NCBI RefSeq assembly: GCF_001654455.1
Contig: NZ_CP015772.1
Coordinates: 5,518,001-5,582,000, forward strand
Direction: 5' to 3'
DNA: 64,000 nt
From: Niabella ginsenosidivorans
GTDB lineage: Bacteria; Bacteroidota; Bacteroidia; Chitinophagales; Chitinophagaceae
Shown here: piece after piece, positions 4,782-6,331 of the stretch
Position numbering within the stretch: position 1 is the stretch's first letter
Layout: each line of letters opens with the position of its first letter
The notes under the pieces: generated by a model
What the model was told of the DNA's origin: nothing
The model's input: only the letters and a program-made list of their open reading frames with translations
The model's database searches: none
Position numbers and translations under genes: made by a program

Positions 4782-5420
4782 ATGCAATTAAAGATTATTC
4801 AGCAAAGAATTTACGAAATAAAAGGACAACGTGTTATGCTTGATTTTGATCTGGCCAGGCTGTACCAGGTTGAGACCAAAAGACTGAAAGAAGCTGTAAG
4901 AAGAAATATAAAACGTTTTCCGGAGGACTTTATGTTTGAGCTTACTAAAACAGAATTCGAGCAATTAAAGGTGCATTTTTCGGATTTCAACCGCGAAAAG
5001 GATCTGAAACCCGCTGCTGGTGCGGATTCTTTAAGGACGCAAATTGCGACCATAAAGAACCCTTCCAAGGCTGATGGGCAGCAGGCGGCTTCAAAAAGAG
5101 GCCGGCACTCAAAATACCTGCCTTTTGCTTTTACTGAGCATGGCGTTACCATGCTGGCATCTGTATTAAACAGCGATAAGGCAATAGAAATGAATATTGT
5201 TATTGTACGGGCTTTTATTGCCTTAAAACAGTTAGCCGTGGAGCATAAGGATTTTATGCAACAGCTGAAAAATCTGAGAACCGAATTACATGAACGTATT
5301 GATGCGCATGACAGCCAGTTAAGCCAGATATATGAAGCATTGGAAAACATGCTGGACGCTGAAGCTGAAAAGAAGGCCAGGGAGGAGGAATGGAAAGCCC
5401 GGAGGCGTATTGGATTTTGA
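4782..5420 (+). CDS. ORF6N-domain protein
   Basis: Protein of 212 aa. Residues about 5-100 match the ORF6N DNA-binding domain known from phage antirepressors and mobile islands: it starts with the characteristic RIYEIKGQRVMLDFDLARLY and continues with TKRLKEAVRRNIKRFPEDFMFEL. A second conserved part (FAFTEHGVTMLASVL) and a C-terminal coiled coil (about 150-210) follow. A TATTTTTG box at 4706-4713 could serve as its promoter. No phage genes lie next to it, so it stands alone between pheS and the tRNA-like RNA gene. Its DNA target is unknown. Confidence 0.85.
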   Translation: MQLKIIQQRIYEIKGQRVMLDFDLARLYQVETKRLKEAVRRNIKRFPEDFMFELTKTEFEQLKVHFSDFNREKDLKPAAGADSLRTQIATIKNPSKADGQQAASKRGRHSKYLPFAFTEHGVTMLASVLNSDKAIEMNIVIVRAFIALKQLAVEHKDFMQQLKNLRTELHERIDAHDSQLSQIYEALENMLDAEAEKKAREEEWKARRRIGF

Positions 5421-5508: not shown

Positions 5509-5540
5509 AAAAAAGCGCTTACACACAGGGGTGTAAGCGC
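5509..5540 (-). terminator. Rho-independent terminator of the tRNA-like RNA
   Basis: A perfect 10-bp stem (5515-5524 with 5531-5540) and a 6-nt loop are followed on the minus strand by six T (5509-5514). It starts nine bases after the discriminator position of the tRNA-like RNA and so should end that transcript. There is no T-run on the plus side, so it is not an obvious terminator for the ORF6N gene. Confidence 0.85.
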
Positions 5541-5548
5541 CTTAAAAG

Positions 5549-5710
5549 CTGTAGGGGGAGGGCTCGAACCTCCACGAGGCAGTTAGCCGTAGCACAAAGT
5601 TTAGTGGTCAATCCTGGTCGTCCTGACGGTCGGCTCTATGCTATGTTTGTCCTGTAATCCTCACCCCCGAGACAAGAGGGCATGTCTGCCAAAAATTTCA
5701 TCACCCCACA
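5549..5710 (-). ncRNA. tRNA-like RNA with a ~90-nt variable region
   Basis: Read on the minus strand, this folds by eye into a complete tRNA body. The 7-bp acceptor stem pairs TGTGGGG (5704-5710) with CCCTACA (5550-5556), with discriminator G at 5549 and no encoded CCA. T8 and G9 are followed by a 3-bp D stem (5699-5701/5682-5684) with GG in its loop (5689-5690). The 5-bp anticodon stem (5676-5680/5664-5668) has the loop TTGTCTC, which puts GTC at the anticodon with an unusual pyrimidine at position 37. The T arm is canonical (5557-5573, TTCGAGC loop). Between the anticodon and T arms lie 90 nt (5574-5663), closed by a 5-bp stem (5659-5663/5575-5579), where a class II tRNA has 10-20 nt. A promoter and a terminator flank it. 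It could be an extreme class II tRNA, a tRNA with an insertion, or a tRNA-derived regulatory RNA. Confidence 0.6.
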
Positions 5711-5746
5711 GTGTAAAGATCTTTGCTTTTTCAGCGTTTGATAGAA

Positions 5747-5779
5747 CAAAAATAGGAATTATCGGGTAGTTATTCCAAA
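5747..5779 (-). promoter_or_regulatory. Promoter of the tRNA-like RNA
   Basis: On the minus strand, TTTG (5776-5779) and TATTTTTG (5747-5754) are separated by 21 bp, an exact match to the Bacteroidota TTTG-N19-21-TAnnTTTG pattern. The predicted start near 5740 leaves a 5' leader of about 30 nt that would have to be trimmed before the acceptor stem. Confidence 0.65.
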
Positions 5780-5863
5780 TATTTCAAGAAAAATTTTGAA
5801 AATATAGAGAATGTTCAAATATTTGCAATAGTTGTTGAATTATTTAAAATCAATACTGGCTAA

Positions 5864-6331
5864 ATGAACAATAAATTGAATCTCGACAAACTGGATCTCC
5901 AGATCATCCAGCACATGATGGAGGATGCTGAGATTTCCTATGCAGATCTTGGTAAGAAACTATTTGTATCCGGCGGCACCATCCATGTGCGTATCAAAAA
6001 GCTGCAAAAGGATGGTATTGTGAAAGGTACAAAATTGAATGCAGATCTAAAGCTGTTGGGTTATGATGTCATTGCTTTTATAGGAATTTACCTGAAGGAA
6101 AGCTCCTTGTATGATTCTGTTGCAAAGGAATTATACAAGCTGAAAGAAGTAGTGCGCCTTAATTACACAACAGGGAATTACAGCATGTTTGCCGAAATTA
6201 TTTGTAAGGATATCAGCGAGTTAAGAACTGTTTTGCATGAAAAGCTGCAAAAAATCAAGGGAATCGAGCGTACAGAAACACTGATTTCTCTCGATGAAAG
6301 CTTTTCAAGGAATGTAAGAGTGCTGGAATAG
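5864..6331 (+). CDS. Lrp/AsnC-family transcriptional regulator
   Basis: Regulator of 155 aa, the standard Lrp/AsnC length. The N-terminal winged helix-turn-helix (about residues 5-62) contains LDLQIIQHMMEDAEISYADLG-type sequence and the recognition region GTIHVRIKKLQKDG. The C-terminal RAM/AsnC ligand-binding domain (about 70-150) has the VVRLNYTTGNYSMFAEIICKD strand pattern. Members respond to amino acids or other small metabolites as octamers. It is transcribed away from the tRNA-like RNA gene, and its neighbours do not show what it controls. Confidence 0.92.
   Translation: MNNKLNLDKLDLQIIQHMMEDAEISYADLGKKLFVSGGTIHVRIKKLQKDGIVKGTKLNADLKLLGYDVIAFIGIYLKESSLYDSVAKELYKLKEVVRLNYTTGNYSMFAEIICKDISELRTVLHEKLQKIKGIERTETLISLDESFSRNVRVLE

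Follow-up and report, generated by a model that had tools for sequence, protein, structure and literature searches.

The closest described route to asparagine on an RNA is the tRNA-Asn pathway of Deinococcus, Thermus and Bdellovibrio, in which a non-discriminating AspRS places Asp on tRNA-Asn and GatCAB amidates it. In E. coli, asnC is divergent from the asparagine-making gene asnA. The signals for charging and amidation are set out in the part of PMC9976931 that we draw on: Asp identity rests on five strong, evolutionarily conserved determinants (G73, G34, U35, C36 and C38), to which the bacterial set adds G10, and G2-C71 is a minor element; G1-C72 is strictly conserved in bacterial tRNA-Asp; and U1-A72 enables the amidation of Asp-tRNA-Asn, which G1-C72 and U20a block in Asp-tRNA-Asp. 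The portion of PMC4206432 used here describes 18 of 547 genera, Bacteroidetes among them, that have AsnRS, GlnRS and GatCAB without AsnA or AsnB; all 18 have a U1-A72 tRNA-Asn, and a relaxed AspRS acting on tRNA-Asn was proposed for them.

Here we describe an RNA gene of Niabella ginsenosidivorans, found in a 64,000-nucleotide stretch of its genome that we call the window. Strong comparative evidence, all of it from sequences, ties this RNA to asparagine synthesis. We consider it quite likely to be a dedicated, non-decoding carrier tRNA for asparagine biosynthesis, which AspRS would charge with Asp and GatCAB would amidate. We base this reading on a tRNA-Leu-like body, five AspRS determinants, U1-A72 and the loss of U33 and purine 37, and also on linkage to AsnC, co-presence with GatB and a near-mutual exclusion with asparagine synthetases.

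The RNA occupies 5548-5711 on the minus strand (164 nt, from position -1 to C74) and combines a tRNA body with a structured variable arm; its parts, all on the minus strand, are given here in window coordinates. An earlier note on this DNA had recognized an acceptor stem, a D arm with GG, a 5-bp anticodon stem and a T arm with TTCGAGC, and we found each of them. The 5' strand of the acceptor stem (5704-5710, starting U1 G2 U3) pairs with 5556-5550, and the 3' side (5548-5556) carries C71 and A72 followed by G73 and C74. The pyrimidine at -1 (5711) is able to pair with G73. The D arm (5682-5701) has a 3-bp stem and a loop with G18G19, C20 and A20a, and resembles the tRNA-Leu type, as do the model matches described below. 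The anticodon arm (5664-5680) presents a 7-nt loop, UUGUCUC (5669-5675), in which G34, U35 and C36 together with C38 are AspRS determinants. Read as TTGTCTC from 5675 to 5669, this loop places GTC at 34-36 and U at 37, just as the note had reported a GTC next to a pyrimidine; the window copy keeps U33 but, unlike a decoding tRNA, has U37. The T arm (5557-5573) reads GGAGG-TTCGAGC-CCTCC.

The variable region fills the exact gap between the anticodon and T stems (5574-5663), and the earlier count of 90 nt is correct. It contains helices V1 (5662-5659/5579-5576), V2 (5654-5652/5582-5580) and V3 (5644-5637/5596-5589), an internal loop (5651-5645/5588-5583) and a terminal domain with GGAUUGACCAC. 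The RNA also has, as had been claimed, its own promoter and terminator: TTTG-N21-TATTTTTG lies at 5747-5779 (minus strand) and presumably is a promoter of the Bacteroidota type, and a hairpin followed by a T-run, picked out by eye at about 5509-5540 (minus strand), is a putative intrinsic terminator. Divergent from the RNA is a gene for an AsnC-type regulator (5864-6331, plus strand). On the other side, an ORF at 4782-5420 (plus strand) sits between pheS and the RNA; by eye, its product resembles a phage-type ORF6N/antirepressor protein.

Standard annotation passes over this locus. ARAGORN called only a tRNA-Arg in the window and nothing at the RNA; Rfam 15 gave no match at gathering score, and at E≤10 returned five weak, unrelated matches, none of them credible. 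The fold of the single sequence (z -1.3) was not decisive. We rejected tmRNA as a candidate: there was no tmRNA match for the RNA, and the genome has a separate tmRNA. The earlier note had named a match to a different family, or stems without covariation, as evidence against its tRNA reading; no Rfam family emerged, and the stems covary. By blastn, 38 of 59 genomes match at E≤0.01, the window's own included, two of these (G007 and G039) being pieces of 25-33 bases from the upstream part only. The best 30 loci held 32 cores, of which 30, from 28 loci, were aligned; two loci contributed a short and a long copy each, and two loci were excluded. Across these cores the cloverleaf and the three variable-arm helices form standard pairs in 97.5% of cells, against 44-60% in a control with slid partners. 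Double-sided changes occurred at 14 of the 36 pairs, where shuffled alignments gave 6.6. In a second set of 76 distinct rows, 75 of which were absent from the first, 97.4% of cells pair and 25 of the 36 pairs show such changes, every one of the seven helices containing two or more of these pairs; this alignment was made by fitting to the model and is therefore biased in its favour. Eight pairs never vary in that set; those in the acceptor stem are U1-A72 and G2-C71, and acceptor pairs 4-7 vary.

We built a covariance model from the family and searched it over genomes of the order, class and phylum at a cut-off of our choosing (E<1e-20). It recovers the RNA in 171 of 298 genomes of the window's order and in 55 of 381 genomes of the class outside the order (the class set holds 395 genomes, 14 of which belong to the order). 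Among 198 sampled genomes of the phylum, none outside the class scored above 62.4 bits. The listed matches below about 63 bits are 73-90 nt long, and those read by ARAGORN were ordinary tRNAs: tRNA-Leu in 8 of 8 cases at 52-62 bits (six GAG, two CAG) and tRNA-Gln in 3 of 3 at 35-39 bits. Three further matches at 29-32 bits in the loci examined were tRNA-Tyr. Judged from this pattern of scores and from the phylum sample, the family is confined, within the genomes searched here, to this class, and tRNA-Leu is the ordinary tRNA closest to it. The family is real and widespread and, as far as Rfam 15 and the open-licence literature searched show, undescribed.

To describe its anatomy we used 194 distinct sequences of at least 100 nt, left from 210 aligned matches after duplicates and short rows were dropped; one row with a broken loop was omitted from the loop counts (n=193). 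The RNAs are 109-207 nt long (median 155), with a variable region of 38-133 nt (median 84). In that region V1 (4 bp) is followed by an internal loop of 3-5 nt and by V2 (3 bp); a second, conserved internal loop, mostly GAUAAAC / GGCUAA, then leads to V3 and to a tip that varies and often contains UGGGUUGACCAC. The body has cloverleaf stems with G18G19 and a TTCGA T loop, as expected of a tRNA. In the 38 short forms (≤125 nt), V1 is fully paired in 36, V2 in 29, and the internal loop ending in AAA/AA is kept in 37. The earlier note had offered an unusual tRNA and a tRNA with a removable insert as explanations. The tRNA body is real; a removable insert finds no support, as V1, V2 and V3 covary, most short forms keep the base of the arm, and the arm is itself a conserved, structured domain. 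Copy number differs between loci: four (L092, L126, L127 and L169) hold tandem arrays of three to four copies, and at other loci a short and a long form occur together. In one Saprospiraceae genome (G078), two matches to the variable-arm part only (model positions 62-136; L073:1294-1361 and 976-1043) lie near a full copy, and are possibly tip domains in diverged copies, or free-standing.

A pattern scan of named genomes, in which matches were taken without model scoring, found at least 120 stretches; among the matches listed are Chitinophaga pinensis, Niabella defluvii, Dyadobacter, Spirosoma, Cyclobacterium, Algoriphagus, Flavihumibacter, Emticicia, Neolewinella and Saprospiraceae. The RNA also occurs in phages. 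Blastn against phage records gave no match, but a short pattern searched in IMG/VR did find copies, and all 79 of these (L360-L438) score 88-133 bits with the model. The pattern fixes GUCUC, so the anticodon is uninformative in this set; U1-A72 and G73, which lie outside the pattern, are present in 51 of 52 distinct rows of at least 100 nt, one cut-off row having been dropped. GUCUC is missing from a single phage row, which comes from a separate match of 39 bits (L379:9979-10113). Every phage copy differs from all bacterial sequences in the set. We scanned 20 of the 79 stretches: two (L408 and L416) have a tmRNA beside tRNAs, and others have many tRNAs. Some copies lie near such tRNA arrays with a tmRNA (for example L408:10332-10482 and L416:7142-7312). 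Of seven ORFs compared from two of the contigs, six gave good matches to phage families (including endolysin, PhoH and RNA ligase) and one a weak match.

The positions that would govern charging and amidation are nearly invariant. The five AspRS determinants are present almost throughout the family: G34 in 189/193, U35 and C36 in 193/193 each, C38 in 191/193 and G73 in 194/194. The exceptions at position 34 are C34 in G504 and G678, which belong to the same family, and U34 in G641 and G476. The acceptor end carries U1-A72 and G2-C71 in 194/194 each, and A20a is found in 192/194, so that the GatCAB signal is in place and the antideterminants G1-C72 and U20a are absent. In its sequence, therefore, the RNA is a hybrid, with what looks like the anticodon loop of an AspRS substrate on what looks like the acceptor end of a GatCAB substrate. 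Some features count against charging by AspRS. Position 10 is mostly A, with the G of the bacterial set in only 13 of 194, and the G1-C72 pair of tRNA-Asp, to which a part in placing the acceptor end in E. coli AspRS is ascribed, gives way to U1-A72 in all 194. In addition, Y(-1) can pair with G73 in 186 of 194 members, which might hinder charging. The two C34 copies (L109 and L129, in G678 and G504) come with a side observation: G504 also encodes AsnA, as if its RNA were decaying.

We surveyed the neighbours of the RNA in 87 loci of at least 4 kb. The regulator next to it in the window adjoins it in 45 of these loci, spread over 18 families, and the next most frequent protein families occur in at most 6. 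The regulator scores best against AsnC: 166 bits with NCBIfam NF008384, under that model's cut-off of 227, and E 3.6e-32 against PDB 2cg4 (E. coli AsnC), compared to 1e-10 against Lrp (2gqq). Forty-three of the 45 pairs were called divergent automatically, with gaps of 95-264 nt, and the other two (L099 and L177) are also divergent by their coordinates: L099 has a second RNA copy, at 5783, on the opposite side, and in L177 the gene start was misplaced. Adjacency to asnC is not seen in some families (0/30 loci in f18, 0/3 in f19, and 0/1 each in f86, f84 and f24).

Across genomes the RNA is almost never found without asnC. In the order (n=298), 170 genomes have both, one has the RNA only (G133), 40 have asnC only and 87 have neither; in the class outside the order (n=381, asnC taken at E≤1e-38), the corresponding numbers are 54, one (G674, whose RNA lies near a contig start), 24 and 302. 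As these counts run over related genomes, nominal P values overstate the association. G171, tabulated in the order as one of the 40 with asnC only, does have an RNA, which is cut by a contig end. In G446, an asnC-only genome of the class set that we counted as lacking the RNA, a weak 115-nt match (25.8 bits; L200:1269-1383) lies beside asnC and is perhaps a diverged member. We read 39 asnC loci, of which seven come from genomes with the RNA and asnC elsewhere, one is that of G171, and the remaining 31 lack the RNA. In these 31, asnB is divergent from asnC in five (G418, G568, G591, G670 and G682) and an archaeal-type asnA in three (G489, G535 and G645); profiles confirmed one synthetase of each type, and homology searches placed all eight at these positions. 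Upstream of asnC in the remaining 23 lie varied genes, none of them a recognised Asn synthetase.

We compared gene content in 72 genomes, chosen rather than drawn: 40 with the RNA, 18 with asnC and no RNA, and 14 with neither. GatB, taken as the marker of GatCAB, is present in 40/40, 9/18 and 2/14 of these groups, respectively. AsnB (E≤1e-40) is found in 0/40, 10/18 and 0/14, bacterial AsnA in 2/40 (G053 and G504), 6/18 and 1/14, and archaeal-type AsnA in 0/40, 3/18 and 0/14. Any Asn synthetase thus occurs in 2 of 40 genomes with the RNA versus 17 of 18 with asnC alone (Fisher 1.5e-11, a nominal value since the genomes are related and chosen), and the lone synthetase-free genome of the latter group (G041) is 75% complete. 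GatB throughout and a synthetase in only two is the gene content expected of a tRNA-dependent Asn pathway. The window's genome follows suit, with GatB present and none of the three Asn synthetases. AsnRS scored above cut-off in all six RNA-containing genomes scanned, so that Asn-tRNA can be made directly there and GatCAB is not needed for it. A separate observation concerns nine f1 genomes (G017, G021, G027, G033, G068, G114, G183, G224 and G275), in which a search found no RNA, asnC ortholog, GatB or any of the three Asn synthetases; they are possible asparagine auxotrophs.

The alternative that survives best, which we nevertheless consider unlikely, is a regulatory RNA of asparagine homeostasis, that is, an aspartylated or AspRS/GatCAB-binding sensor or decoy in cells that make Asn on tRNA-Asn with a non-discriminating AspRS and GatCAB. 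The AsnC linkage would suit such a role, the identity elements are as compatible with enzyme binding as with catalysis, and the 18 genera with AsnRS, GlnRS, GatCAB and U1-A72 tRNA-Asn but no AsnA or AsnB suggest that route in the portion of PMC4206432 used here; with U1-A72 in all of them, tRNA-Asn may be amidatable in some carriers. However, a decoy needs no joint invariance of the AspRS determinants and U1-A72, and the RNA mostly replaces synthetase genes rather than accompanying them. Moreover, the only bacterial tRNA-Asn found on a contig that carries the RNA (L320, from a Saprospiraceae MAG, with the RNA identified by pattern only) has G1-C72 and, in this single case, should be a poor GatCAB substrate. 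In 40 pieces of 20 kb (800 kb) sampled from another carrier genome (G255), glnS, aspS and tRNA-Asn were not found. The tRNA mimic with a regulatory role that the earlier note had entertained is not the best fit: the genes around the RNA, the gene content of the genomes and the identity elements all favour a role in metabolism, in which the RNA would carry Asp and Asn for asparagine synthesis.

In genomes with the RNA, GatCAB might act on tRNA-Gln as well, and it is conceivable, if very unlikely, that the GatB link reflects tRNA-Gln decoding only and that the function of the RNA is unrelated. Eleven of the RNA-less genomes among the 72 do have GatB. Yet within the window's family GatB follows the RNA (10/10 genomes with it versus 0/13 without), and does so even within one genus: G007, from the genus of the window, has pheS and asnC in the same order with no RNA between them, lacks GatB and has AsnA. 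Decoding of tRNA-Gln would also leave the asnC linkage and the exclusion of Asn synthetases unexplained.

The GUC anticodon and the Asp determinants might suggest an unusual decoding isoacceptor of tRNA-Asp. The earlier note had found the RNA odd as a decoding tRNA, and the family bears this out: of 193 members, 158 have U33, while 26 have C and 9 have G at that position, and only 7 of the 193 have a purine at 37. Among the 160 distinct ordinary tRNAs that ARAGORN called in the window and in the loci examined, those on phage contigs among them, 158 have U33 and 158 have a purine at 37. This loss of U33 and purine 37, compared to ordinary tRNAs, led us to reject a decoding tRNA-Asp, which we regard as extremely unlikely; the wide range in length of the variable region, the patchy distribution, the replacement of G1-C72 by U1-A72 and the presence of an ordinary tRNA-Asp in a carrier (L273, Dyadobacter) also speak against it. 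By its loop, the RNA is probably not a decoder. Neither is it an isoacceptor of tRNA-Leu: in place of a Leu anticodon and A73 it has G34 U35 C36 in 189/193 and G73 in 194/194. The encoded C74 is nothing special, as many ordinary tRNAs in the loci examined also end on it. SerRS does not need the anticodon loop, which is here among the most conserved parts, and the gene context is asparagine rather than serine. A serine-charged class II tRNA or an allo-tRNA-like molecule with another role, suggested by SerRS features (G73, G2-C71 and a long variable arm), has hardly any probability and was rejected, because position 72, C in bacterial Ser identity in the part of PMC9976931 cited, is A in 194/194.

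If the RNA is a carrier tRNA for asparagine biosynthesis, AspRS would load it with Asp, GatCAB would amidate Asp-RNA to Asn-RNA, and Asn would be released as free asparagine, spontaneously or through some further factor, with AsnC tuning the amount of RNA to asparagine supply. An Asn-RNA with an aspartate anticodon would misread Asp codons as Asn and so would have to be kept out of translation; the altered anticodon loop and huge variable arm would bar it from the ribosome. Such an RNA would make unnecessary the relaxed AspRS proposed in the portion of PMC4206432 used here. From the same comparisons, we think a broader history likely, in which a tRNA nearest to tRNA-Leu left translation and became a dedicated biosynthesis cofactor, with signals for Asp charging and GatCAB, control by AsnC, the place of asparagine synthetase in a large part of the class, and a presence in phages as a metabolic RNA gene. 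This would be a tRNA acting only as a metabolic carrier, without decoding, and, with its giant variable arm, an RNA of tRNA origin in place of an enzyme. Asparagine synthesis in the many Bacteroidota that lack asparagine synthetase would thereby be explained; the RNA would also help to account for the retention of GatCAB alongside AsnRS in these genomes and would add a metabolic RNA to phage gene content.

Several known RNAs share parts of this plan. Like tmRNA, the RNA has tRNA-like ends with extra RNA between them, but it keeps an intact anticodon arm. With tRNA-Leu (GAG/CAG), its nearest ordinary relative by model matches, it shares the type of D arm; it differs from it in the GUC anticodon, G73 and the long, structured variable region. 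Long variable arms and unusual acceptor domains are also found in tRNA-Sec, allo-tRNAs and selC*-type tRNAs, which are described as Ser, Cys and Sec tRNAs; the part of PMC7609411 that covers them mentions no Asp set and no link to asnC or GatCAB. The position of the RNA recalls that of asnA in E. coli, since in both an AsnC-type regulator is divergent from its neighbour, in E. coli an asparagine-making gene, an arrangement that some RNA-less relatives keep with asnB or an archaeal-type asnA; the partner here is an RNA rather than an enzyme gene. The closest likeness in proposed chemistry is to the tRNA-Asn pathway, where Asp on a U1-A72 tRNA is likewise amidated by GatCAB, in genomes that have AsnRS and usually no Asn synthetase. 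That pathway uses a decoding tRNA-Asn and a relaxed AspRS, whereas here the same steps would fall to a separate, apparently non-decoding RNA with an Asp anticodon.
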